Assembly (NCBI GenBank): GCA_018883105.1
Contig: VEQS01000002.1
Location: 1-59,271, forward strand
Length of the DNA stretch: 59,271 nt
Origin: Phycisphaerales bacterium
Lineage (GTDB): Bacteria > Planctomycetota > Phycisphaerae > Phycisphaerales > SM1A02
Direction of reading: 5' to 3'
This document shows positions 10,274 to 25,755 of the stretch, piece by piece. Position 1 is the stretch's first letter; each line of letters starts with the position of its first letter. The notes below the pieces were generated by a model, which saw only the letters and a list, made by a program, of their open reading frames with translations, was not told the DNA's origin and made no database searches. The translations under genes and the position numbers were made by a program.

Positions 10274-10882
10274 TCAGGACCCCAGGAGCAGCGTCGCGTA
10301 GAGAAGCAGCCAGATCGCGTCCAGCGCGTGCCAGTACATGGCGCAGAGGACGATCCCCGCGTGGTCCTCGGGCGTGTACCGCCCCGCGCGCGCGTGCCTC
10401 AGCGCGATCACCATGGGGGGCAGGCCGCCCAGGACGTGCACCGCGTGCAGTCCCGTGAGCACGTAGAAGGTCCACGCGTAGAGCCCGCTCCCGATCGTGG
10501 CCTGCGCGCGCCACAGCTCGGCCCACGCCAGCACCTGGATCCCCAGGAACAGGATGGCGAGCGCGAGCGTCGTGCCGATCGACGCCACCACCCGCGCCGG
10601 CCGTCCCGTGCGCGCGGCGCCGACGGCCGACTGCATCGTCCAGCTCGACACCAGCAGGATCGCCGTCGACAGGAGCAGCGCCGGCGGCAGCCCGGGCGTG
10701 CCCGGGGGCATCCACTCGCTGCCCGGCGGGCGGTCGACGCGCACCACCACGTAGCCCAGGATCGTGGCCAGGAAGACCATCGCCACCACGGCGATGAACA
10801 CCCACATGCCGAACACCCCGGCGCCGCCGCGTTCGCGGGCGCTGTCGAAGGGATCCACGACCGTGGCGGTCTTGATGGCCAT
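10274..10882 (-). CDS. Heme-copper oxidase subunit III homolog (second copy)
   Basis: This 202-residue membrane protein has five or six helices and belongs to the COX3 family: F-G-M-W-V-F-I near helix 1, G-L-H-A-V-H-V-L-G-G in a central helix, and A-M-Y-W-H-A-L-D-A-I-W-L-L-L-Y at the end match subunit III landmarks. It lies last in the act-cox operon, 36 bp after the subunit IV gene. The operon already contains a full subunit III (11362-12336), so this may be an extra structural subunit or a paralog with a changed role. Its end faces the DUF3179 gene 15 bp away. Confidence 0.85.
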   Translation of the reverse strand: MAIKTATVVDPFDSARERGGAGVFGMWVFIAVVAMVFLATILGYVVVRVDRPPGSEWMPPGTPGLPPALLLSTAILLVSSWTMQSAVGAARTGRPARVVASIGTTLALAILFLGIQVLAWAELWRAQATIGSGLYAWTFYVLTGLHAVHVLGGLPPMVIALRHARAGRYTPEDHAGIVLCAMYWHALDAIWLLLYATLLLGS

Positions 10883-10919: not shown

Positions 10920-11339
10920 TCACATGTCCGGGGACTTCATCTGCGCCACGGGGGCACCCGGGGCATTCGCATCGAGCGTCGCCTGGGCCTCGGGGGCGTT
11001 GCCGCCGAAGATCGTCGCCTCGTACTGGTGCACGTCCATCGACGCGAAGGCGATCAGGAGCAGCACGAACACGATCGAGCCGACCAGCACCAGCAGGTTG
11101 AACGGACGGTCCCAGCGCAGGTGCATGAAGATCAGCGCGACGATCGTCGCCTTGACGAGCGCGATGCCGAGCGCCACGGGCATGTTCGCCTCGCCGAGGT
11201 CGACGTAGCGCACGGCCACGGTGACGACGGTCAGGACGAGCAGCGCGAGGCCGGCGGCGTACAGGTAGCGGACGGGGACGACGTGCCCCACCTCGGGGTG
11301 GGCCTCGTCTCCGTGGGCGTGGTCGGCGTGGTGGGCCAT
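10920..11339 (-). CDS. Cytochrome c oxidase subunit IV family protein
   Basis: This small membrane protein (139 residues) has three helices (about 24-44, 55-72, 80-99) with the family landmark A-L-I-F-M-H-L-R-W-D-R. It would be the small subunit IV of the caa3 oxidase. The start at MAHHADHAHG is chosen by alignment to the helices; the upstream in-frame extension is antisense-like. The first 20 residues are rich in His and Asp/Glu, and the last 40 are an Ala/Pro-rich tail. It lies between coxC and the second subunit III. Confidence 0.88.
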   Translation of the reverse strand: MAHHADHAHGDEAHPEVGHVVPVRYLYAAGLALLVLTVVTVAVRYVDLGEANMPVALGIALVKATIVALIFMHLRWDRPFNLLVLVGSIVFVLLLIAFASMDVHQYEATIFGGNAPEAQATLDANAPGAPVAQMKSPDM

Positions 11340-11361
11340 GGTCGTGGTCCTCGGGGGTCGC

Positions 11362-12336
11362 TCAGTGGATGAGGTAGAAGAGCGGGAAGAGGAAGATCCA
11401 GATGAGGTCGACGATGTGCCAGTAGAGGCCGCCGGTGTCGACCGCGGTGAAGTTCCTGCTCGAGAAGTCGCCGCGCACGGCGCGCCAGGTGAGCCACGCC
11501 AGGATGCCCATGCCGGCAACGACGTGGATGCCGTGCAGGCCGGTCATCGCGTAGTAGATGGCGAAGAAGAGGTGGGTGTTCGGCGGCATCGCCGGGTCCT
11601 CGAGGTGGAGGGCCGGGTGGGCCTGCTCGGCCGAGCCGGGCGCGGGCTCGGCGGCCGGCGCCGGGGCGGGCTCGCCCGAGGCGCGCGCGATGCCGGTCGG
11701 GCCGCGCGAGGCCTGCTTGACCGCCGACGCGTCGACGGCAGGCTTCTTCGCCAGGTCCGGCACCACGAACGGCGCCGGGTCCTGCACCACGAGCGTGGTG
11801 GACACGGTGGGCGCGGTCTTCAGCGCCTCGCGCTCCGCGTCGCCTTCCTTGCCCTCGGGCGGCACGTAGAAGGTGCTGCCCCAGACGAGGTTGTCGTGGA
11901 TCTTGTGCGAGTACTCGAAGTACTTGATCACCAGGAAGCCGACCGCGCCCAGGAACGTGAGCACCAGGCCGAGGATCAGTCCCTTGCGGTTGTTGGTCTG
12001 GGCGCAGCGCACCGCGAGCGCCATGGTGAGGCTCGAGGCGATCAGCACGCAGGTGTTGATCCCGCCCATGATCGTGTCGAGGTAGTGGCTCGCGTAGCTG
12101 AACACCTCGGGGTGGCGCATCCGCAGGATGGCGTAGGCCGCGAAGAGGCCGCCGAAGAACAGCACCTCGGTGGCGAGGAACAGCCAGATCCCCAGCTTGG
12201 CGCTGTCGAACTGCTGCGCCATGCTGTCGAAGTGGTGCGCCAGGTGCGGGTCGTGCCCGTGGCCATGGCCGTCGTGGCCGTGTCCGTGGCCGTCGTGGCC
12301 GTGGCTGTCCTGGGCGTGGGCGATGGTCTGGGTCAC
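11362..12336 (-). CDS. coxC: Cytochrome c oxidase subunit III with His-rich N-terminus and loop insertion
   Basis: Subunit III of the terminal oxidase, with A-K-L-G-I-W-L-F-L-A-T-E-V-L-F-F-G in helix 1, Y-Y-A-M-T-G-L-H-G-I-H-V near helix 5 and the C-terminal Y-W-H-I-V-D-L-I-W-I-F-L-F. It has 324 residues against the usual 190-210, for two reasons. The first 35 residues repeat H-G-H and D-G-H units. About 95 residues (158-252), rich in Pro, Ala and charged amino acids, are inserted in a loop between helices. It follows coxA by 22 bp. Confidence 0.92.
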   Translation of the reverse strand: MTQTIAHAQDSHGHDGHGHGHDGHGHGHDPHLAHHFDSMAQQFDSAKLGIWLFLATEVLFFGGLFAAYAILRMRHPEVFSYASHYLDTIMGGINTCVLIASSLTMALAVRCAQTNNRKGLILGLVLTFLGAVGFLVIKYFEYSHKIHDNLVWGSTFYVPPEGKEGDAEREALKTAPTVSTTLVVQDPAPFVVPDLAKKPAVDASAVKQASRGPTGIARASGEPAPAPAAEPAPGSAEQAHPALHLEDPAMPPNTHLFFAIYYAMTGLHGIHVVAGMGILAWLTWRAVRGDFSSRNFTAVDTGGLYWHIVDLIWIFLFPLFYLIH

Positions 12337-12358: not shown

Positions 12359-14086
12359 TCAGTGCGCGGCCTTCGGCGCCGCGGAGGGGTTCACCTCGGG
12401 GTCGGCGGACTCGTCGACCCAGTAGCCGCCGGTCTTCTCGTCCCAGTGGACGACGCTGAAGTCGTAGCAGTCGCCGACGCGCGGCGCCTTCGCGAAGTTG
12501 TCGAAGGGCGGCGGGCTGGCGCACTGCCACTCCAGGCTGCGGCCGCCCCACGGGTTCGCCGGCGCCTTGCGGCCGGAGAAGAAGCTGCCGAACAGGCTCA
12601 CGGCCGTCAGCACGAAGCCGAACGCCATGATGTAGCTGCCGACCGTCGAGATGACGTGGTAGACCTGGAACTCGGGCTGGTAGTCGTAGTACCGGCGCGG
12701 CATGCCGTGCGAGCCCAGCATGAACTGGGTGAAGAACGTCACGTTGAAGCCGATGAAGATGATCCAGCAGGCGATCGTGCCCAGGCGCTCGTCGTACATG
12801 CGCCCGAACATCTTCGGCCACCAGTGGTGCACGCCGCCGATCATGGCGATCAGCGCGCTGCCCATCATCACGTAGTGGAAGTGGGCGACCACGAAGTACG
12901 TGTCGTGCAGGTGCACGTCGGTGCTGAGCGTGGCCAGGTGCAGGCCGGTGAGGCCGCCGATGGTGAAGAGGAACAGGAAGGCCAGCGCGTACCACATGGG
13001 AGTGGTCAGCGACACCGAGCCCTTGTACAGGGTGGCCACCCAGTTGAACACCTTCACGGCGCTGGGGATGGCGACGCTGAAGCTGATCGCCGAGAACAGC
13101 GTGTTCATCAGGGCCGACTGGCCCGAGGTGAACATGTGGTGTCCCCAGACGATGAAGCTGAACATCGCGATGGCGATCGAGCTGAACGCGATGAAGCGGT
13201 AGCCGAAGATCGACCGGTGGCTGTTGATCGCGATGATCTCGCTGATGATGCCCATCGCGGGCAGGATCATGATGTAGACGGCCGGGTGGCTGTAGAACCA
13301 GAAGAAGTGCTGGTAGAGCACCGGGTCGCCGCCCATCGCCGGGTTGAAGATGCCGACGTTCACCGTCTTCTCGACGATGAGCAGCAGCAGCGTGATGCCC
13401 AGCACCGGGGTCGCCAGCACCTGGATGATGGCGGTGGCGTAGAGCGCCCACATGAAGAGCGGCATCCGGAACCAGGTCATGCCCGGGGGACGCAGCTTGT
13501 GGACGGTGACCACGAAGTTCAGGCCGGTGAAGATCGAGCTGAAGCCCAGGATGAACACGGCCGTCAGCACCGGGATCACGCCGCCCGCGGCGGTGGTGGT
13601 GGAGTACGGCGTGTAGAAGGTCCAGCCGGTGTCGAAGCCGCCCATGGCCAGGGACAGGATGCAGAGCACCGCGCCGGTCACCCACAGGTAGTAGCTGAAG
13701 AGGTTCAGCCTCGGGAAGGCGACGTCCTTGGCGCCCAGCATGATCGGCAGGATGACGTTCCCCAGCGCCGCCGGGATGCTGGGGATGATCACCAGGAACA
13801 CCATGATCGCCCCGTGCAGGGTGAACCACTGGTTGTAGGTGTCGGCGCTCTCGGTGATGGTCGGGCCGGGGGTGAGCAGCTCGGTGCGCACCAGCAGGGC
13901 GAAGATGCCGCCGAGCAGGAACGAGCCGAGCACCGACCACAGGTACATGACGCCGATGCGCTTGTGGTCGAGGGTGAAGACCCACGACAGCACGCCGCGC
14001 GTGTGCGTCAGGTAGTTGTCGCGCTCGGGGCGGGCCTCGATCGTGTCGCGGACGGGGCCGGCGGATGGAAGCGGGATGGTGGTCAT
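12359..14086 (-). CDS. coxA: Cytochrome c oxidase subunit I, type A2
   Basis: The catalytic 12-helix subunit (575 residues), binding heme a, heme a3 and CuB. Ligands are visible: H91 (L-H-G-A-I-M-V-F), H267 and the cross-link tyrosine Y271 in Y-S-H-P-A-V-Y (265-271), the H316-H317 pair (W-G-H-H-M-F-T), and H402/H404 (A-H-F-H-Y-V-M-M). The Glu of H-P-E-V-Y is replaced; the Tyr-Ser pair before H-P is the known hallmark of the A2 subfamily, so this is a normal A2 oxidase and not a broken one. It lies between coxB and coxC. O2 reduction is coupled to proton pumping. Confidence 0.97.
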
Positions 14087-14126: not shown

Positions 14127-15239
14127 TCACTTCGTCGCGCCCGCCGCGCGCGGCTGGGCCGTCTCGGGATCCAGGGTGGGGAGCAGCTTGCCCGTCTTCG
14201 GGTCGAGCTGGTCGAGGTGCTGCATGTAGCCGATCAGCGCGTCGATGGCGACGTCGTTGAGCTGGCCCTTGAAGGTCGGCATGGCGTTGGCGTAGGGCGG
14301 CACGACGTAGTCGCCGGGCACCAGGATCGAGGTGCGCACGTAGTCCTCCCACGTGCCGTACTTCTTGCCCTCGCCCACGAAGGGATAGGCCTTCGCGCGC
14401 TCGACGATGCCCTTCCAGCTCGGGCCGATGCCGTCGGTGCCGTCGAGGGAGTGGCACTGGCTGCAGCGGGCGAAGAGCTTCGGGCCGGCCTTGAACCAGA
14501 GCTGGTCCTCGGGGATGTCCTCGATCCAGCGGCTCTGCTTCTGCATCCACTCGCCGAAGGACGCCTCGTCCAGCACGTAGACGTAGCGGTTCATCTTGGA
14601 GTGGCCGGTGCCGCAGTACTCGGTGCAGAACAGCGCGTGCCGCTGTGCCTCGTCCAGGGCGCCCTCGACGCGCGCGGCGTTCGGGTTGCGCGGCTCCTTG
14701 CCCGGCTGGCCGGTGGGGAAGTCGCACTGGAACCACGCGTACGTGTAGCGGCCCGGCACGATGTCGCGCTTGACGCGGAAGTCCGGGATGTAGAGCGAGT
14801 GCAGCACGTCGCTCGAGCGCAGCACCAGGCGCACGGGCTGGCCGGCGGGGACGTAGAGGTCGTCCGACTGCGCGCCGTTGGGGTACTGGAAGGTCCATCC
14901 CCACTTCTGCGCGGTCACCTTGACGTCGAAGGCATTCTTCGGCGCGGTGTAGATGTCGAGGTAGCTGCGGAAGCCGACGACGAAGATCCCGATCACGATG
15001 ATCGTGGGCAGGATCGACCAGCCGATCTCCAGCGGCGTGTTGTGGTGCGGGTAGTCGGTGCGGAACCGCTCGCCCTTGCGGTGGCGGTACTTCACGACGA
15101 AGTACACCATCAGCGCCAGGATGACCGCGAAGAAGAAGTAGCAGATCCAGTTGATGACGTCGAGGGTGTGGTCGACGCCGGGGGCGATGGTCGACGCGCC
15201 CGTGGGCATCCAGAAGGTGGGTGGCGTGGGGGTGTCCAT
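14127..15239 (-). CDS. coxB: Cytochrome c oxidase subunit II fused to cytochrome c (caa3 type)
   Basis: This 370-residue subunit takes electrons from ACIII or cytochrome c. Two membrane helices (about 28-50 and 72-92) precede a cupredoxin domain with the CuA ligands H147 and C205-x3-C209-x3-H213-x2-M216 ([12 protein letters not shown]). The C-terminal cytochrome c domain carries C-S-Q-C-H (259-263) and a likely Met ligand in N-A-M-P-T-F. The covalent heme c makes this a caa3-type enzyme. About 30 extra residues lie between the aromatic strand and the CuA loop (about 172-203). Start ATG at 15239, 19 bp after the SCO gene. Confidence 0.96.
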
Positions 15240-15258: not shown

Positions 15259-16137
15259 CTATTCGGCGTGGGGCGCGGGGACGGCCTGCGGTGCGAGCCG
15301 GCGCGACTGGGCCTCGCGCCACCAGAACCAGCCCAGGCCTCCGGCGAGCACGGCGAGCGTCAGCGCGCCGCCGAGCTGCATCACGCGCATGGCGAGCACC
15401 ACGTAGCCGCCGGCCTGCGCGTCGTAGATGTGGCACCAGAGGATGATGCGGTCGAGCGTGGTGCCGATGCGGCCCTCGGAGGCCTCGAGCAGCGCCATGC
15501 GAACGTTCGCGGGCTCGTACTTCACGCCGTAGAGCACGCGGCTGAGGCGGCCCTGCGGGGTCAGCACGAACACCGCCGCCGCGTGCGAGTACTCGCCGTT
15601 CTCCTGCAGGCGGTACTCGAAGCCGACGGCGTCGGTCACCCTGCGGATCTCGGCCTCCTGCCCGGTGAGGAAGTGCCAGCCCTTGGCGCTGCCGGCGCGG
15701 CCGTACTCGGCCACGTAGCCCGCCTTCTTCGCGTCGGCGAGCTCGGGTCCCTCGGCCGGGTTGACCGAGAGCGAGATCACGTCGTACTGGTCGCCGACCG
15801 TCCAGTCCACGCCCTGGATGCCGCGCACCAACGCGTTCATCACCAGGCTGCAGAGCATGGGGCAGCGCAGGTAGCCGATCTGCAGGATCGCCGGGCGGTC
15901 CTTCGGAAGCACGTCGCGGAACGCCACGCGGTTGCCGCGCTCGTCCAGGAACGTCGCGTCGAGGGGCAGCTGCGCGTCGAGGCGGTCGATGATGTCGACG
16001 CCGACGAGCTCGGGCGCGGCGTCGACGGTCGGCGCCGGCGCCTCGTAGCCGCCGCCGACCTTCACCTGCGCCGACGCCGCGGCCGACAGCCCGAGGGCGG
16101 CGGCGAGCGAGGCGAGGATGGTTCGGGCGGGGCCCAT
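15259..16137 (-). CDS. SCO1/SenC/PrrC family copper chaperone with C-terminal anchor
   Basis: This 292-residue exported protein helps to load copper into the CuA site of CoxB. The thioredoxin-like fold carries the copper-binding C92-P-M-L-C96 motif and the downstream histidine in G-E-Y-S-H-A-A-A-V-F-V-L. A signal peptide ends near A-S-A-Q (24). Unlike many SCO proteins it also has a hydrophobic helix near the C-terminus (L-G-G-A-L-T-L-A-V-L-A-G-G-L-G-W-F-W-W), so it is probably anchored at that end. It sits directly upstream of coxB, which supports the assignment. Confidence 0.92.
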   Translation of the reverse strand: MGPARTILASLAAALGLSAAASAQVKVGGGYEAPAPTVDAAPELVGVDIIDRLDAQLPLDATFLDERGNRVAFRDVLPKDRPAILQIGYLRCPMLCSLVMNALVRGIQGVDWTVGDQYDVISLSVNPAEGPELADAKKAGYVAEYGRAGSAKGWHFLTGQEAEIRRVTDAVGFEYRLQENGEYSHAAAVFVLTPQGRLSRVLYGVKYEPANVRMALLEASEGRIGTTLDRIILWCHIYDAQAGGYVVLAMRVMQLGGALTLAVLAGGLGWFWWREAQSRRLAPQAVPAPHAE

Positions 16138-16156
16138 CGGGAAACGGTAGGCGCGG

Positions 16157-16570
16157 TCAGTTGGCGGGGGCGGGCGCCGCGGCCGCCGGGGCGGCAGGGG
16201 CGGGCGTCGATGCCGCCGGGGGCACGGCAAGGCCGGGATTCGCGGCCATCAGGCGCATCGCCTCCGTGACCGGGATGCGGCGGCGCTCGACGGCGGTGCC
16301 GCCGATCTCGACCGTGTAGGTGCCGGTCGAGGCAAGCAGCGACTCCTGCGCCGCGCGCAGGTCCTTGAGCGCGAGGTACTCCGGCTCGATGACCTTGGCG
16401 TTCACCTCGGCCTGCTCGGTGCGGAAGTAGATGACGCTGATGGCGATGATCAGCGCGGCGAGGATGGTGATGCCGATGAGCGAGACGGTCCACGTCTGCC
16501 CGGGCTCCGGGTCGTCCCAGAGGACCCCGGCGGGCGTCACGAACTCGTTGTCTGGCGTTGCGGTGCTCAT
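16157..16570 (-). CDS. Unknown single-helix membrane protein in the act-cox operon
   Basis: This 137-residue protein is not one I recognise. The visible parts are an N-terminal segment with W-D-D-P-E-P-G-Q-T-W, one membrane helix (about 29-46, S-L-I-G-I-T-I-L-A-A-L-I-I-A-I-S-V-I), then an outer-side domain of about 65 residues (V-E-I-G-G-T-A-V-E-R-R-R-I-P-V-T-E-A-M-R), and a Pro/Ala tail of about 25 residues. It lies between actF and the SCO gene with 20-bp spacers, so it is co-transcribed with the complex. It may be an extra subunit or assembly factor; this is inference from position. Confidence 0.8.
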   Translation of the reverse strand: MSTATPDNEFVTPAGVLWDDPEPGQTWTVSLIGITILAALIIAISVIYFRTEQAEVNAKVIEPEYLALKDLRAAQESLLASTGTYTVEIGGTAVERRRIPVTEAMRLMAANPGLAVPPAASTPAPAAPAAAAPAPAN

Positions 16571-16590: not shown

Positions 16591-17892
16591 TCACATGTTC
16601 TCGAAGGCGAGGCTCTCGGCGAGCGACGGGTCGCGCGCCGGCACCAGCGCGTGCGAGCGGAGCGCGTTGAGCGCGCCGCCCGCCACCAGCGCCAGGACGC
16701 CGAGCGCCATGCACAGGAAGGACGGGTCGAGGAGGTGCGGCGCGGAGTCGGCGTGCTTGGCCGCGAACTCCGCGTAGGTGCCGAAGTTCCCCATGTCATG
16801 GGGGATGTGCGGCACGATCAGGTAGTACAGGTCGACGGTGCCGAAGACGAGCATCCAGCCGCAGCCGAAGGCGAGCGTCGCGTTCCAGCGCTTGGTCCAG
16901 CGCGAGATCAGGAACACGAACGGCACGATGAAGTGGCCGACCAGGAGCGCCCAGCTCAAGGGCAGCCAGCCGCCGACCTGGCGCGCCAGGTACCACGTGG
17001 TCTCCTCGGGCAGGTTGCCGTACCAGATCAGCATGAACTGGCTGAAGGCGATGTACGCCCAGAACACGATGCCGAAGGCGAAGAGCATCTTGCCCAGGTC
17101 CTGGTAGTGCTCGGCCGTCACGATGCCCTGCAGGCGGCCCCAGCCCTGGAGCCGCTTGGTGAGGAGCACGATGGCCGACAGCCCGCAGGTGGCGCAGGCG
17201 GCGAAGAAGTACACGCCGAACATGGTGCTGAACCACGCGGGCGAGAGGCTCATCATCCAGTCGACGGCGGCGAAGGTGATGGTCAGGCCGAAGACGATCA
17301 TCGCCGGGCCCGACCACTTGCGGCACGAGGCGCTGATCGCCGGGTCGCCCGAGCGGTCCTGGCGCACGCTCGCGCCCCAGAAGAACGAGGCGATCGCGGC
17401 CCACGCGACGAAGTAGATGGCGGCGCGGACGAAGAAGAAGCGCTCGCCCAGGTAGCCGGCCTTCTTGCCGACGAGCTCCGCCTCGGCGGGCGCCACCTTC
17501 GCCAGCTCCTCCAGGTTCGCCCACGGGTAGAGGACGTCGAGCGAGCCGTTCCAGCCCATCCAGGCGATCGGCAGGAACAGCACCCACGCCCAGCGCAGGT
17601 TCTGCATCAGCGCCTCGGCGGGCCGGCGCACCGCGACGCTCCAGCCGGCGCGCGTCAGGTGCTGCACGACGACGAAGAACGTGGCGCCCAGGCAGATCGC
17701 CAGGCCCAGCATCATCGCCACCAGCCAGTGGCGCGCGAAGTGGGAGGGATCGCCGGAGCGGTAGCCGAGCCAGGCGCCGGCGGCGACGAGCGCGGCACCG
17801 ATGCCGAGCATGGCGCGGGCGGGACCCGCGGCCACCGATCCGCCGAGGTTGGCGTCGGTGAGGTCGTGGGCGTGGTGGTCGTGGTGGGCCAT
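16591..17892 (-). CDS. actF: Alternative Complex III subunit ActF (quinone-side membrane subunit)
   Basis: This 433-residue polytopic membrane protein has about ten helices and is the ActF-type relative of NrfD. Landmarks include W-M-G-W-N-G, R-K-W-S-G-P-A-M-I-V-F-G-L-T, and F-S-Q-F-M-L-I-W-Y-G-N-L-P-E-E-T in the characteristic central loop. In ACIII, ActC and ActF form two homologous membrane halves around which quinol is oxidised. The first ten residues, MAHHDHHAHD, are His-rich. It follows actE by 22 bp and precedes the unknown membrane protein. Confidence 0.93.
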   Translation of the reverse strand: MAHHDHHAHDLTDANLGGSVAAGPARAMLGIGAALVAAGAWLGYRSGDPSHFARHWLVAMMLGLAICLGATFFVVVQHLTRAGWSVAVRRPAEALMQNLRWAWVLFLPIAWMGWNGSLDVLYPWANLEELAKVAPAEAELVGKKAGYLGERFFFVRAAIYFVAWAAIASFFWGASVRQDRSGDPAISASCRKWSGPAMIVFGLTITFAAVDWMMSLSPAWFSTMFGVYFFAACATCGLSAIVLLTKRLQGWGRLQGIVTAEHYQDLGKMLFAFGIVFWAYIAFSQFMLIWYGNLPEETTWYLARQVGGWLPLSWALLVGHFIVPFVFLISRWTKRWNATLAFGCGWMLVFGTVDLYYLIVPHIPHDMGNFGTYAEFAAKHADSAPHLLDPSFLCMALGVLALVAGGALNALRSHALVPARDPSLAESLAFENM

Positions 17893-17914: not shown

Positions 17915-18565
17915 TCAGTCGGCGGCGGCGGCGTCCTGGCTCAGCTGCAGGGCCTTCACGTAGGCGGCGATCGCCCAGCGGTCCTCGACCGGGATCTGCG
18001 AGGCGTAGCCGGCCATGTTGCGGATGCCGTGCGTGATGGTGTTGAAGAGCTGGCCCATCGGCTGGTTCCGCGTCGTCTCGTCATGCAGGCTCTTGGCGGC
18101 CACCCACTGGGTGCCGTTCACGGGGCCATTGGCGTTGGTGACCAGCTCCATCGCGCGCCGGTTGACGGCGCCGTCGCCGAAGCCCGCGTAGCCGTGGCAG
18201 GCCGAGCAGTAGATGTCGAAGCGCTGGCGGCCGCGCGCGAGCGTCGCGGCGTCGAGCTTCATCGGCGCCGGGAGCGTGGCCGCCCACTGGCCGCCGGAGA
18301 CGCCCTCGTACATGTGCACGTCGACATAGGACTCGCCGCGGGCCACGGTGCCCGCGACGGGCGGGCGCATGGCGCGGCCGTCGGCGAAGAGCGGGTTGCC
18401 CACCTGGGTCTTGAACTTCGGCTGGAAGTCCATGTCGTAGAAGATGTGGATCGGGCGGTTCGGGCTCGGCACCGCGCGCATGCGCGCGAAGACGAGCGGC
18501 GGGATGAGCGCCAGGCAGCCGGCGATCATCAGCGAGTAGACGAGGATGCGCGGGAGCTTGGGCAC
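17915..18565 (-). CDS. actE: Alternative Complex III subunit ActE (mono-heme cytochrome c)
   Basis: This 216-residue cytochrome c carries heme on C-S-A-C-H-G-Y and has a likely Met ligand in N-M-A-G-Y or Q-P-M-G-Q. An N-terminal hydrophobic stretch (I-L-V-Y-S-L-M-I-A-G-C-L-A-L-I) holds a cysteine suited to lipid attachment (L-M-I-A-G-C). ActE is the likely exit point that passes electrons to the oxidase. The gene starts with GTG one nucleotide after the actD stop, so the two are probably coupled. Confidence 0.93.
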   Translation of the reverse strand: MPKLPRILVYSLMIAGCLALIPPLVFARMRAVPSPNRPIHIFYDMDFQPKFKTQVGNPLFADGRAMRPPVAGTVARGESYVDVHMYEGVSGGQWAATLPAPMKLDAATLARGRQRFDIYCSACHGYAGFGDGAVNRRAMELVTNANGPVNGTQWVAAKSLHDETTRNQPMGQLFNTITHGIRNMAGYASQIPVEDRWAIAAYVKALQLSQDAAAAD

Positions 18566-18566
18566 G

Positions 18567-19181
18567 TCAGTCCTCCACCGCCTCGACGGCGGATGCGCCG
18601 AGCGACTTCAGGAAGTGCTCGGTCTTGGAGCGGTAGAAGCGCGGGTCGCGCGCGTCGATCGAGATGAAGAAGCGGTCGTCGGAGGCGCGGCGGAAGCGCT
18701 CGCTGCCGAACAGCGGGTTGTGCAGCCGCGGCAGGCCGTTCATCAGGAGCATCAGCCCGACGGTGCTGAGCGCCGAGAACAGGATGGTGAGCTCGAAGAT
18801 GACCGGGATGAACGCCGGGATGCTGAGCGCCGGCTTGCCGCTGATCAGGAACGGGTAGCCGGTGACCCACACCAGCGCCCACAGCGTGAAGCCGAAGGAG
18901 TTGGTGAAGAGCTGCAGCAGCAGGCCCGTCGTGCAGCCGGCGGCACCGGCGCAGAAGACGAGGACCGGCAGGATGGTGCGCTGGATGCCCATGGCACGGT
19001 CAAGGCCGTGCACCGGGAACGGCGTGTGGCAGTCCCAGTACCGGTAGCCGGCGTCGCGGACCTTCTCGGCGGCCTCGAGCAGCTGCGCGGGGTTCTCGAA
19101 CTCCGCGAGCATGCACGCGAGGCGGCGCGGCGCGGCGGCCGGTGCCTGGTGGGCGTGGGTGGTGGGCTGGAGCGTGGTCAC
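18567..19181 (-). CDS. actD: Alternative Complex III subunit ActD (DUF3341)
   Basis: This 204-residue protein has two membrane helices (about 70-95 and 105-150 region) and the DUF3341 landmarks: A-E-F-E-N-P-A-Q-L-L-E-A-A near the N-terminus, Y-W-D-C-H-T-P-F-P-V-H-G-L-D, and R-F-R-R-A-S-D-D-R-F-F-I near the C-terminus. ActD packs on the membrane part of ACIII and lacks cofactors. It lies between actC (31 bp) and actE (1 bp). Confidence 0.95.
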   Translation of the reverse strand: MTTLQPTTHAHQAPAAAPRRLACMLAEFENPAQLLEAAEKVRDAGYRYWDCHTPFPVHGLDRAMGIQRTILPVLVFCAGAAGCTTGLLLQLFTNSFGFTLWALVWVTGYPFLISGKPALSIPAFIPVIFELTILFSALSTVGLMLLMNGLPRLHNPLFGSERFRRASDDRFFISIDARDPRFYRSKTEHFLKSLGASAVEAVED

Positions 19182-19212: not shown

Positions 19213-20705
<1,493 letters not shown>

Positions 20706-20709
<4 letters not shown>

Positions 20710-23700
20710 GCCTTGGCTCCGTTGGCGGCGGCGGCGTTGCCGTGCCCGCCATGGCCGTGGTCATGGCCATGGTCGTGCCCGTGGTCGTGCGCGCCGTGGT
20801 CGATGGCGGGGTTGTCCACGCGCGCGAGGTACTTCAGGCGCGGCTTCGTGTTCAGCTCCTCGAGCAGGTCGTAGCTGCGCTTGGAGCGCTGCAGCGCCAG
20901 CACGTCGCTTCCCTCGACGTTCAGGTCGCCGAAGACGATCGCGCCGGTCGGGCAGGCCTGCATGCAGGCCGTCTGCACCGCCCAGTCGGGCATCGCCTGC
21001 TCGCCGCCGCCGGCGTTGCCGCCCTGGCGCACCCAGCGGTTCTTGGCGGAGATCTTCGCCTCCTGGATGCGCTGCGTGCAGAAGGAGCACTTCTCCATCA
21101 CGCCGCGCATGCGCACCGTGACGTCCGGGTTGAACTGCATGCGCAGCCAGTCGTTCGGGCCGTCCTTGACGTAGTACTCGGGCTTCGTCATCAGGACGTC
21201 GCCCTCGCGCACCGGGTCGCGCCGGTTGTAGTCGAAGAAGTTGAAGCGCCGCACCTTGTACGGGCAGTTGTTGCTGCAGTAGCGGGTGCCGATGCAGCGG
21301 TTGTAGACCATGTTGTTCAGGCCGTCCTTGTCGTGGACGGTCGCGGCCACCGGGCACACCTGCTCGCACGGCGCGTTCTCGCAGTGCACGCAGGTCACCG
21401 GCTGCACGCGGTAGGCGTCCGGCCGCTGCGCGTCGCCGCCCTTGAAGTAGCGGTCGATGCGGATCCAGTGCATCTCGCGCCCGCGGGCCACCTGGTCCTT
21501 GCCCACGATCGGGATGTTGTTCTCCGCCTGGCATGCCACCACGCACGCGCTGCATCCGGTGCAGCTGGAGAGGTCGATGGTCATCGCCCAGCGGTGCTTG
21601 GCGCCCTCGAGGTTGGTCTCCTCCCACATCGAGAGGCGGTGCGCCACGTGGGTGGCGTGCTTGGCGAAGTCGGGGTGCTCGCGGTAGTGGGCGAGCGAGG
21701 CCTCGCGCACCAGGGTCGGCAGGCGCTCCTGGATCGAGTCGAGCGGGATGGACGGCACCGCCGCATCGGCCGTGCCGTGGTCCTGCGTGTGCGCGAAGGC
21801 ATACGTGCCCTGCCCCTTCGCCGCCTTGGTGCCGGTGGCGATCCACGCGGCCTTCAGGGTGCGCAGCGGCGCGGCGGCGAAGCCGGCGCCCGCGCCGATC
21901 GAGCCCGCCGCCTCGCCGCGGCCGTAGCCGACGGCCAGGCCCAGCGTGTCGTCGGCCATGCCGGGAAGCACCCACGCGGCCGCGTCGACGGATGCGGCAC
22001 CGCCGGGCACGGAGACGCCCACCAGGTCGCCGCTCTTGACGCCAAGCTTGCCGGCGGTCGCGGCGGACATCAGGAGCGCGTTGTCCCAGGTGATCTTGGT
22101 GACGGGGTCGGGCAGCTCCTGCAGCCAGCCGACGTTCGCGAAGCGGCCGTCGAACACCTTGCCGTCGGAGAAGAACTCAAGGTCCATCCCGTCGGCCTCG
22201 GTGCGCGAGGCCACCCAGTCCGACATCGCGCGCTCGGCACCCGAGGGGGCCGGCGTGCGCTGCGCGGCGGACGCGGTGCCCTCGCAGGCGCCGCGGTCGA
22301 GGCAGCCGCGGAAGTGCGCCTCGAAGTCGTTGCCCGAGCGGCCCGAGAGCTGCATGTGCCGGCGGCGCACCAGCTCGCGGCCGTCGCGCACCGCGTCGCC
22401 GGAAAGCGCCGCGACCAGCTCGATCGCGCTGCGCCCGCCCTCGGCGGGGTCAAGGAGCGGCGCCACCAGGGGCTGCGCGATCGCGATCGTGCCGTCGGCG
22501 GCGCGCGTGTCGCCCCAGCTCTCCAGGAAGTGGGTCATCGGCACGTGCCACGTGACGCCGGCGGCACGCGACGTCTCGTCGACGTGGTAGGACAGGTGCA
22601 CGACGTGCTTGGCCTTGGCCATCGCGGAGGCGAAGCCGAGGTCGGCGGGCGCGTCGAAGGCCGGGTTGCAGCCCACGACCACCAGCGTGTCGACGTTGCC
22701 GGCGTTCAGCATGGCGACGGCCTTCTCGAGCGCCGGGCCGCACTGCTCGGAATCGGTCGACATCGTCTCGACCGTGGTGCCGTAGGCGCCGAGGTGCGCG
22801 TTGATCGCCGCGGCGATCGCGTGCACGACGGGCGGCTGGCGGTAGCCGGCGACGACGAGGCCCGCGCTGCCGGCGGACTTCAGGTCCTCCACCAGCGCAT
22901 CGAGGATCTCCTGGTCATGGTCACCGAGCTTCGGCGCGAACGCGGCCATCTGGCGCGCGCCCCCGACGCCGAGCCGGTCGGCGACCGCGGCGGCGAGTGC
23001 CGCGACCTGCGAGGGCCGCACGGCGATTCGCTGGTCGGCGCTCATGCCGGTGACGGTGAGCAGTCCCTCCACCTGGTAGACGCGGCTCATCTCCGCCTTC
23101 GCGGCGTCCTTGGCGACGAGGCGTCCGTTCTCGCGGCGCATGAGCGTCCGTCCCGCGGCCCACGCGCGCGCGTTCTCGACCGAGGAGCGGCACTCATGCA
23201 GGAAGTCGCTGTCGAGGCTCAGGATGACCTTCGCGCGGTCGAATCGCGGGCGCACGGCGCGCGGCGCGCCGAAGGCGAGCTTCGTGCCGGCGAGCGCGTT
23301 GTCGTCGTTCACCGAGCACCACGACGCCCACGTGGCCTTGGGGAAGGCCGAGAGCAGGCGTGCACGCACGTCGGCCATGGTGGGCGACGCGGACGGATCG
23401 GCGACGACCACGAGGCCGGCGCCGCCCGTGCGCTTCCACTCGGCGCGGCGCGGCTCGAGCCACGCGTCGAACGCGGCGGCCGTGGAGGGCTTGCCCCCCT
23501 CGAGCGCGATGCGGCTGCGCTCGGGGTCGTAGAGCTCGAGCACGCGCGCCTGGGCGATGGCCGTCGACGGCCCGACCTGCGCGACGCCGCGCGCGGCGAG
23601 CGCCGCGGGGTCGACCGACGCCGCGCCGCCGGCGAGCGGGGCGCTCGGGTGCGCGGGGTTGCCGTCGAGCTTGATCGGGCGGCCGTCGAAGCTGGTGGCG

Positions 23701-24074
23701 AGCACGCCGAAGCCGGTGCCGGCGAGCTCGTAGGTGCTGGCGTAGGTGACGGGGATGCCGGGCGAGCGGTTCGCGGGACGCGACGCGTACTCGGCGAACT
23801 TGGCCTCGGGGTAGCGGCGGCAGCCGGCGGCGGCCAGGCCCGCGAGCGCGAAGGACGCGCCCATCACCTTGATGAACGAGCGGCGGTCGTCGTCGCTCGC
23901 CTCGGCCGCGCCGGGCTGGAACTCCCGGTGCATGAACGACTGGAACTCGGGGGTTGCGGCGAGCTGCTCGACCGAGCGCCAGTAGGCGCTGCGGCGCGCG
24001 GGGCCTCCGGCCTGCGTGGCGGGAGCCGGCGCGGGGGCGGGCTCGGCGTGTCCGTGGGTGCAACCGTCGTGCAT
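20706..24074 (-). CDS. actB: Alternative Complex III subunit ActB (molybdopterin-oxidoreductase-like plus iron-sulfur domain)
   Basis: This 1122-residue subunit faces the periplasm. It begins with a twin-arginine-like export signal ([19 protein letters not shown] at 64-65). The first part is the cofactor-free relative of molybdopterin oxidoreductases. The second is a ferredoxin-like domain with cysteine clusters [38 protein letters not shown], and C-S-F-C ... C-M-Q-A-C-P-T-G. These would carry electrons from quinol to the heme subunits. The C-terminus is a repeat of H-D-H-G-H units. The start [10 protein letters not shown] is the last ATG before the Tat-like signal. Confidence 0.95.
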
Positions 24075-24127
24075 GGTTCGGGTCCGTGTCTGGCGTGTCG
24101 GTGGTCGCGGTGCCGCGGGGGCGGCGC

Positions 24128-24781
24128 TCAGCGGTGGCAGGTCGTGCAGTACTCGTTCGGGTGGATGTCGTAGCGGTCGATCAGCGCGAGCCGCTCGTCC
24201 TTGGTCCACGTCTCGGTGGTGGGCTTCCAGAGGGCGAAGACCTCCTCCGGCGGGCGGACATGGTCGACGGGGTTGCGGTGGCAGCCGAGGCACCAGCCCA
24301 TCGAGAGCGGCTGCGCGCGGTGCACCACTTCCATCTGGTCGACGCGGCCATGGCACTCCACGCAGCTGACGCCGCGCGTGACGTGCGCGGAGTGGTCGAA
24401 GTACGCGTAGTCACCCAGCTTGTGCACCTTGATCCACTCGATGGGCATGCCGGTCTCGTAGCTCGAGCGGACCTCCGCGAGCTTCGGGCTCTCCTTGTGG
24501 ATCTGCGTGTGGCAGTTCATGCAGGTCTGCGTCGGCGGCACGGCGGCGTGCGCGGCGTTCTCGACCGTGTTGTGGCAGTAGCGGCAGTCCATGCCCAGCT
24601 TGCCCGCGTGCAGCGCGTGGCTGAAGGGCACGGGCTGGGCCGGCTGGTACTGGCCGTCGAGCGTCTTCGGGCTGAACCCGTAGGCGACGAGCAGCGTCAC
24701 GTAGAGCGGGGCGACGGCGCCGACCACCAGCACGAAGGGCAGCAGCGCGTTCGACCAACGGGGGAACAGGAATCGGCTCAT
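24128..24781 (-). CDS. actA: Alternative Complex III subunit ActA (pentaheme cytochrome c)
   Basis: This 217-residue protein has one N-terminal membrane helix (about 12-33) and five C-x2-C-H heme sites: C-R-Y-C-H, C-M-N-C-H, C-V-E-C-H, C-L-G-C-H and C-T-T-C-H, the last at the extreme C-terminus. Five hemes is the usual number for ActA. It is the first gene of the 13-gene respiratory operon. I chose MSRFLFPRW as start because it directly precedes the helix; an upstream ATG would place coding sequence over the promoter and operator described separately. Confidence 0.95.
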   Translation of the reverse strand: MSRFLFPRWSNALLPFVLVVGAVAPLYVTLLVAYGFSPKTLDGQYQPAQPVPFSHALHAGKLGMDCRYCHNTVENAAHAAVPPTQTCMNCHTQIHKESPKLAEVRSSYETGMPIEWIKVHKLGDYAYFDHSAHVTRGVSCVECHGRVDQMEVVHRAQPLSMGWCLGCHRNPVDHVRPPEEVFALWKPTTETWTKDERLALIDRYDIHPNEYCTTCHR

Positions 24782-24813: not shown

Positions 24814-24832
24814 GCGGGCGCGAAACGCCCGC
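24814..24832 (-). promoter_or_regulatory. Leader hairpin of the act-cox operon
   Basis: GCGGGCG (24814-24820) and CGCCCGC (24826-24832) form a perfect 7-bp stem with a 5-nt loop. It lies in the predicted 5' leader, between the operator-like palindrome and the actA ATG. No U-tract follows, so it is not a plain terminator; it may stabilise the mRNA. Confidence 0.5.
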
Positions 24833-24837
24833 AGACT

Positions 24838-24855
24838 TTGTGAAAAGTTTCACGA
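24838..24855. promoter_or_regulatory. Rex-like operator in front of the act-cox operon
   Basis: The site reads TTGTGAA-AAGT-TTCACGA. It fits the published Rex consensus TTGTGAA-N4-TTCACAA with one mismatch. The palindrome extends to 24 bp (24835-24858), arms ACTTTGTGAAA and TTTCACGAAGT, with a single mismatch. The core also fits the CRP pattern TGTGA-N6-TCACA with one mismatch. It lies just downstream of the predicted actA transcription start, a position that fits a repressor better than an activator. No rex or crp gene is in the window. Confidence 0.55.
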
Positions 24856-24867
24856 AGTCCGCTGCCA

Positions 24868-24897
24868 ATGTTACGGCCCGTGCCAAGAGGCGGTCAA
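24868..24897 (-). promoter_or_regulatory. Sigma70-like promoter of actABCDEF-cox
   Basis: On the minus strand TTGACC (24892-24897) and TAACAT (24868-24873) are separated by 18 bp. The expected transcription start is near 24861, giving a leader of about 80 nt before the actA ATG. This is the best-formed -35/-10 pair seen for a protein gene in the window. Confidence 0.6.
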
Positions 24898-24963: not shown

Positions 24964-25755
24964 TTGATCGATACTCACTGCCATCTCCTGAACGACGCCC
25001 TCGCGGACCACGTCCCGAGCGTGATTTCGCAGGCCCGCGCGGCCGGGGTGGGTGCGTTGATCACCGTGGGAACCACGACCGCCGACTCGCTGGCGAGCGC
25101 CCAACTCGCCGGCCGCCACCCCGAGGTCTGGTCGACCGCCGGCGTCCACCCGCTCCATGCCCTCGACCCGCGCGACTGGGACCAGATGCGCCGCGCCGGC
25201 GCGCACCCGCGCTGCGTCGCCTGGGGCGAACTGGGCCTCGACCGCCACTACCCCTCCCCCACGCAGGAGGAGCAGCGGCCGGTGCTCGAGGAGCAGCTGG
25301 CACTCGTGGCGCGGTGGAACGACGAGCTGGGGGCGAAGCCGGTCGTCGTGCACTGCAGGCGCGCGGTGGCGGACCTGCTGCCGGTCCTCGCCTCGAGCGG
25401 CCTGCCCCGCGACCGATTCGTCTTCCACTGCTTCACCGAGGGGCCGGACGAGGCGCGCGCCGTGCTCGACTTCGGCGCGTGGATCAGCTTCACCGGCGTG
25501 GTGACCTTCCGCAGCGCACCCGAGGTGCAGCGCGCGGCGATGCTGGTGCCGATGGACCGGCTGATGTGCGAGACCGACGCGCCCTACCTCGCGCCGGAAC
25601 CCGTGCGCGGCACGCGCCCGTGCACGCCGGCGATGGTGATGCACGTCGCACGGCACCTGGCGGTGCTGCGCAACGTGCCGTGGGAGGACTTCGAGCGCAC
25701 GGTGGACGCCAACGCCTGCCGCTTCTTCGGGCTTCCCGAGGGGTGCGGGCGATAG
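24964..25755 (+). CDS. tatD: TatD family metal-dependent DNase
   Basis: This 263-residue TIM-barrel hydrolase has the family metal ligands in D-T-H-C-H-L (residues 3-8), G-E-L-G-L-D, V-V-H-C-R, F-H-C-F-T-E and C-E-T-D-A-P-Y. Known TatD proteins act as 3'-5' exonucleases or D-aminoacyl-like hydrolases; the exact role here is open. The start is TTG at 24964, as there is no ATG or GTG before the D-T-H-C-H motif. It is followed 15 bp later by tatC, a common neighbour, although TatD is not part of the translocase. Confidence 0.92.
   Translation: MIDTHCHLLNDALADHVPSVISQARAAGVGALITVGTTTADSLASAQLAGRHPEVWSTAGVHPLHALDPRDWDQMRRAGAHPRCVAWGELGLDRHYPSPTQEEQRPVLEEQLALVARWNDELGAKPVVVHCRRAVADLLPVLASSGLPRDRFVFHCFTEGPDEARAVLDFGAWISFTGVVTFRSAPEVQRAAMLVPMDRLMCETDAPYLAPEPVRGTRPCTPAMVMHVARHLAVLRNVPWEDFERTVDANACRFFGLPEGCGR

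Follow-up and report, generated by a model that had tools for sequence, protein, structure and literature searches.

The palindrome upstream of the act-caa3 operon

Alternative complex III (ACIII) is the substitute for the bc1 complex in many uncultured bacteria, and no paper on the regulation of act operons was found in the open-access literature searched. The window analyzed here, a stretch of 59,271 nucleotides of contig VEQS01000002.1 from a Phycisphaerales bacterium, raises the question of how such an operon might be controlled, as a palindrome lies within it between a predicted promoter and actA, the first gene of a cluster encoding ACIII and a caa3 oxidase. We consider it very probable that this palindrome is the operator of the genome's own Rex protein, at which Rex would repress the act-caa3 operon and from which it would be released when NADH rises.

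A previous, sequence-only reading had described a near-perfect palindrome of 24 bp at 24835–24858 with a single mismatch to the Rex consensus. The bases at these positions and the mismatch proved to be as described, and the palindrome was present, although its extent is slightly longer, at 26 bp (GACTTTGTGAAAAGTTTCACGAAGTC; Table 1). Of its 13 base pairs 11 are complementary, and a repeat finder assigned it 15-nt arms that are 87% complementary and 2 nt apart. The 18-bp core, TTGTGAAAAGTTTCACGA, differs at one position from the consensus TTGTGAA-N4-TTCACAA and is the best match to that consensus in the 2.76-Mb MAG. Scanning the whole genome with the 18-bp pattern identified one further place, on contig C129, with two or fewer mismatches, whereas at this threshold the reversed control pattern matched nowhere. 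In addition, a scoring matrix that was trained solely on 47 sites from other genera gave the window site a score of 29.4, compared to 11.2 for the second-best position in the window, and simulated sequence of matched composition (4 Mb) did not score above 16.7. The palindrome by itself is unremarkable; it is the fit to the motif and the conservation of the site that are remarkable.

The gene identities confirmed that the unit downstream of the site encodes ACIII, the caa3 oxidase and a copper chaperone. Twelve of the 13 genes that had been counted in this operon were verified, namely actA to actF, sco, coxB, coxA, coxC, coxD and a second cox3 gene (Table 1). This one oxidase cluster therein has two COX3-family genes. 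The ctaA gene lies further downstream on the same strand, and tatD followed by tatC are divergent from position 24964.

Table 1. Features of the act-caa3 region in the window.
Feature	Position	Strand	Evidence or remark
Rex operator (predicted), 26-bp palindrome	24834–24859	.	Motif and repeat searches, matrix score
18-bp Rex core	24838–24855		Within the palindrome; plus-strand reading
-35 box TTGACC, act promoter (predicted)	24892–24897	-	TTGAC kept at equal spacing in relatives
-10 box TAACAT, act promoter (predicted)	24868–24873	-	TACCAT/TAGCAT/TACGAT at equal spacing in relatives
actA, multihaem cytochrome c subunit of ACIII	24128–24781	-	First operon gene
actB, molybdopterin-like/Fe-S subunit	20706–24113	-	PDB ACIII subunit B chains; start approximate
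actC, NrfD-like	19213–20709	-	
actD	18567–19181	-	PF11821
actE, monohaem cytochrome c	17915–18565	-	
actF	16591–17892	-	6f0k_F ActF, E 2.8e-71
sco, SCO1/SenC copper chaperone	15259–16230	-	
coxB, caa3 oxidase subunit II with fused cytochrome c	14127–15239	-	
coxA, oxidase subunit I	12359–14086	-	
coxC, oxidase subunit III	11362–12336	-	COX3 family
coxD, prokaryotic oxidase subunit IV	10920–11519	-	As listed ORF; true start probably ~11360 or lower
Second COX3-family gene	10274–10882	-	
ctaA	6609–8069	-	Further downstream of the cluster

The promoter that had been proposed upstream of the site, TTGACC-N18-TAACAT, is present on the minus strand, where it is followed after 7 nt by GGACTTCGTGAAACTTTTCACAAAGTCT. 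Transcription is predicted to start at about 24860–24862, and the palindrome, which abuts or overlaps this predicted start, is located at +1 to +28 by that prediction. The site is thus placed at, or directly next to, the predicted promoter of the unit it would regulate. The description of the site as overlapping the start of the operon needs a small correction, in that it does not overlap the gene start, 52 nt separating it from the actA ATG (24781).

The Rex protein of the genome

A search for rex homologs in the MAG (87% complete, 6% contamination) found that it encodes one genuine Rex, of about 216 aa, on contig C67, adjoining a metF-like gene; this is a different contig from that of the act-caa3 operon. 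Contamination is unlikely to be the source of the gene because 12 of the 14 genomes of the genus carry rex, including 11 of the 13 members other than this MAG. The protein matched PF06971 (E 5.9e-17) and NCBIfam NF003995 (240 bits, cut-off 126), and consists of an N-terminal winged helix (PF06971) and a Rossmann NAD-binding domain (CoA_binding, PF02629) with the GxGxxG motif. Among the Rex chains in the PDB, the closest solved protein was that of Thermotoga maritima (5ZZ5, 7WB3; PMC8836258), at E 3e-46.

The recognition helix of this Rex has the sequence QVRKD, and Q[VI]RKD was invariant in all parsed relatives. When aligned to T. maritima Rex, whose DNA-contact residues were taken from PMC8836258, it was found to keep the base-reading pair Arg48/Lys49, as well as Arg12, Ser33, Gln46, Gly58, Gly61 and Tyr64. 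It differs from known Rex proteins in two DNA-contact residues, Lys43 being replaced by Thr and the minor-groove Arg60 by Pro. The Arg60 position is Pro or Ala in every parsed member of the family (family f1 Rex, e.g., L003), and in the act sites the base that Arg60 of T. maritima contacts is less strict, being either T or C.

The bases of the palindrome also fit the consensus of the CRP/FNR family (TGTGA-N6-TCACA) with one mismatch, and the sequence-only reading had pointed out both this fit and a position unsuitable for an activator. We confirmed both points. Even so, we consider it very unlikely that the site serves a CRP/FNR-family regulator, as activator or repressor, based on the distribution of HTH_Crp_2 proteins and the position of the site. 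A scan for crp homologs showed that CRP-type regulators do not track the site: HTH_Crp_2 was identified at E <= 1e-5 in just one of the 14 genomes of the genus, whereas all 12 members with upstream DNA have the site, and the CRP-type matches in the genome studied here were all below the cut-off. Conversely, a relative with a clear CRP-type protein (G044, E 5e-17) has neither rex nor the site. In addition, +1 to +28 is the wrong place for an activator.

Conservation of the site and its co-occurrence with rex

Matches in named genomes were to planctomycete MAGs carrying the labels Planctomycetaceae, Phycisphaerales and Phycisphaera, in line with the name Phycisphaerales used for the group. Of 121 relatives, 110 have an identifiable actA gene. 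Comparison of the regions upstream of the act operons showed that the palindrome is conserved, with the motif present in 60 of the 88 relatives scored and the sites having the act-strand consensus GACTTTGTGAAAAAAGGCACAAA. Among the relatives, the half nearer the promoter, TTGTGAA, hardly varies, and the distal half is variable. The motif of the family, TTGTGAAAAAAGGCACAA, is asymmetric: its second half reads TTGTGCC, so that the far half is not the canonical TTCACAA. Unlike the family motif, the window copy has a canonical far half.

The site is kept upstream of orthologous operons in genomes with rex and is absent in those at least 90% complete without it, with seven exceptions among rex-positive genomes (G031, G032, G033, G034, G067, G088 and G102). 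The site was present in 56 of the 63 genomes with rex; of those without rex, four had the site and 21 did not. All four of the rex-negative genomes with the site are MAGs, with a completeness of 64–88%. When rex-negative genomes less than 90% complete were dropped, the counts with and without the site were 56 and 7 for rex-positive genomes versus 0 and 18 for rex-negative genomes (Fisher p 1e-12, a value that ignores shared ancestry). The joint loss of site and rex is a pattern that repeats in separate groups. In family f1 the members lacking rex (G021, G035/G068 and G044) are without the site, and the site is also absent from the scored rex-less members of f2 and f6 and, together with rex, from some members of f5.

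Co-occurrence figures that ignore phylogeny would also be expected if a regulator other than Rex reads the site and has been co-inherited with rex through shared ancestry, and the asymmetric half-site of the family motif might likewise suit such a protein. However, it is the Rex motif that the site carries, the recognition helix of Rex does not vary in the parsed relatives, loss of the site accompanies loss of rex in each of the separate groups named above, and the candidate targets include a classical one for Rex, ATP synthase. A co-inherited regulator of another kind is needless as an explanation, and we regard its involvement as highly improbable.

Position of the site relative to the promoter

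A sequence of the form TTGA[CT]-N15-20-TANNNT was present 5–18 nt upstream of the site in 44 of the 60 site regions, compared to 0.2% of shuffles. The distance from the -10 box of the predicted TTGAC/TANNAT promoter to the site was nearly constant across relatives, with a median of 13 nt, while the distance from the site to the ATG spanned about 23 to 242 nt. Because the former is nearly constant while the latter varies, the site is tied to the promoter and not to the gene or leader. Based on the predicted promoters, its position is the one at which a bound protein would block initiation, as is typical of a repressor, and site and promoter together represent one putative promoter-operator module conserved over about 40 genera.

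It is most improbable that the palindrome acts as an RNA hairpin controlling stability or translation in the act 5' leader, although transcription from the predicted start would include it and its arms are able to pair. Its distance to the ATG is variable compared to the near-fixed -10 spacing, its inner four positions are A-rich and unpaired in most genomes, and on the mRNA strand of the window a C faces an A. Covariation is also lacking: column pairing clearly exceeds independence at a single T/C position, where GC content alone could account for it, and otherwise does so weakly in the outer arm.

A separate GC-rich stem-loop, GCGGGCG-TTTCG-CGCCCGC, is found 3' of the operator in the act leader (24814–24832, minus strand). 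A stem beginning GGCGTT or GGGCG recurs at the equivalent place in most members of the genus, its paired bases differing, and there is no T-run after the stem-loop of the window. This is possibly a conserved leader hairpin.

Proposed repression by Rex and comparison with known Rex systems

The assignment of the palindrome to Rex, which had been made from the letters of the site, is supported at the level of sequence by a Rex encoded in the genome, by a site that is conserved and tracks rex, and by its fixed, repressor-type position at the promoter. It also withstood the refutation tests named at the outset, as far as these are feasible in silico. In known systems, Rex with NAD+ binds DNA and represses, and NADH releases it (PMC8836258, PMC2883068). 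By analogy to the Rex family, from which we infer binding, the direction of repression and release by NADH, a Rex dimer that is NAD+-bound or apo would occupy approximately +1 to +28 relative to the predicted act transcription start. There it would obstruct RNA polymerase, such that the act-caa3 operon (ACIII, SCO chaperone and caa3 oxidase) would be repressed. An increase in NADH relative to NAD+ would cause Rex to leave the DNA, upon which the quinol-to-oxygen branch would be induced and the pool re-oxidized. The operon would thus be held down at low NADH/NAD+ and induced when electrons back up, either through oxygen shortage or donor excess. The occurrence of a Rex-type site at a fixed place in the promoter across dozens of genera suggests that the quinol-to-oxygen branch is directly linked to NADH/NAD+. 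If so, a redox sensor common to about 40 genera would allow this ratio to set the level of the whole branch.

Rex operators are already well known as a kind of element. In Streptomyces avermitilis, Rex represses atp, cyd and nuo via TTGTGAAN4TTCACAA, ATP synthase is a demonstrated target, and operators with one or two mismatches are bound (PMC5355995). The sites of that species (atp, cydA1, nuoA1 and rex-hem) share with those studied here the 18-bp motif with one to two mismatches, respiratory targets that include ATP synthase, and an operator placed within the promoter or immediately after it. The terminal oxidase target differs, being cytochrome bd in S. avermitilis versus ACIII plus caa3 here. 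A further difference is that the S. avermitilis rex is autoregulated, whereas no site above a score of 9.2 was detected by rex in the 31 rex loci that we scanned. The Staphylococcus aureus operators (TTGTGAAW4TTCACAA, PMC2883068) have the same core motif, an A/T-rich spacer and co-localization with the promoter, but the S. aureus Rex regulon comprises fermentation and anaerobic respiration, in contrast to the aerobic ACIII-oxidase chain here. What would be new is the act-caa3 operon as the core Rex target in Planctomycetota, the lineage itself, and the predicted promoter-operator module over about 40 genera. Within the open-access literature searched, this appears to be the first Rex regulon for Planctomycetota.

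Other candidate Rex targets

The regulon of the genome was sought by pattern matching, and pattern scans covered 81 genomes of the family, in which matches to the Rex pattern outnumbered those to the control patterns. In addition to the act operons, sites were identified upstream of atpZ, the start gene of ATP synthase (L261), adk (L265), ctaA (L256), a gene for a NapC/NirT-type multihaem cytochrome (L209) and, by eye, narK (L210). Sites were also present upstream of a gene for a sigma-70-family factor with regions 2 and 4 (L208, L242, L263, L268 and L296); these were in five genera (G016, G025, G041, G069 and G129) and absent from most others. Together, the non-act sites of the family make up a predicted Rex-like target set.

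Only two strong Rex-type sites were found in the genome studied here. The second (L002:1501–1518, contig C129) had a score of 19.6 and is located ~150 bp before a gene for a protein of 416 residues. The equivalent place in G004 scored 15.0, as did a similar site in the shorter locus of G005, and in the remaining genomes the site before this gene was weak or missing. We tentatively suggest that in this high-GC genus Rex may have shrunk to a nearly dedicated switch, which would control the act-caa3 operon and the one gene on C129 and would not be autoregulated, and that the Rex of sister genera may also control the sigma-70-family factor. If this suggestion is correct, a wider part of the transcriptional program of those sister genera could be reset by redox state. 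The 416-residue protein is conserved but had no match in Pfam. By eye, its N-terminus resembles an XRE-type HTH, and it is perhaps a DNA-binding regulator.
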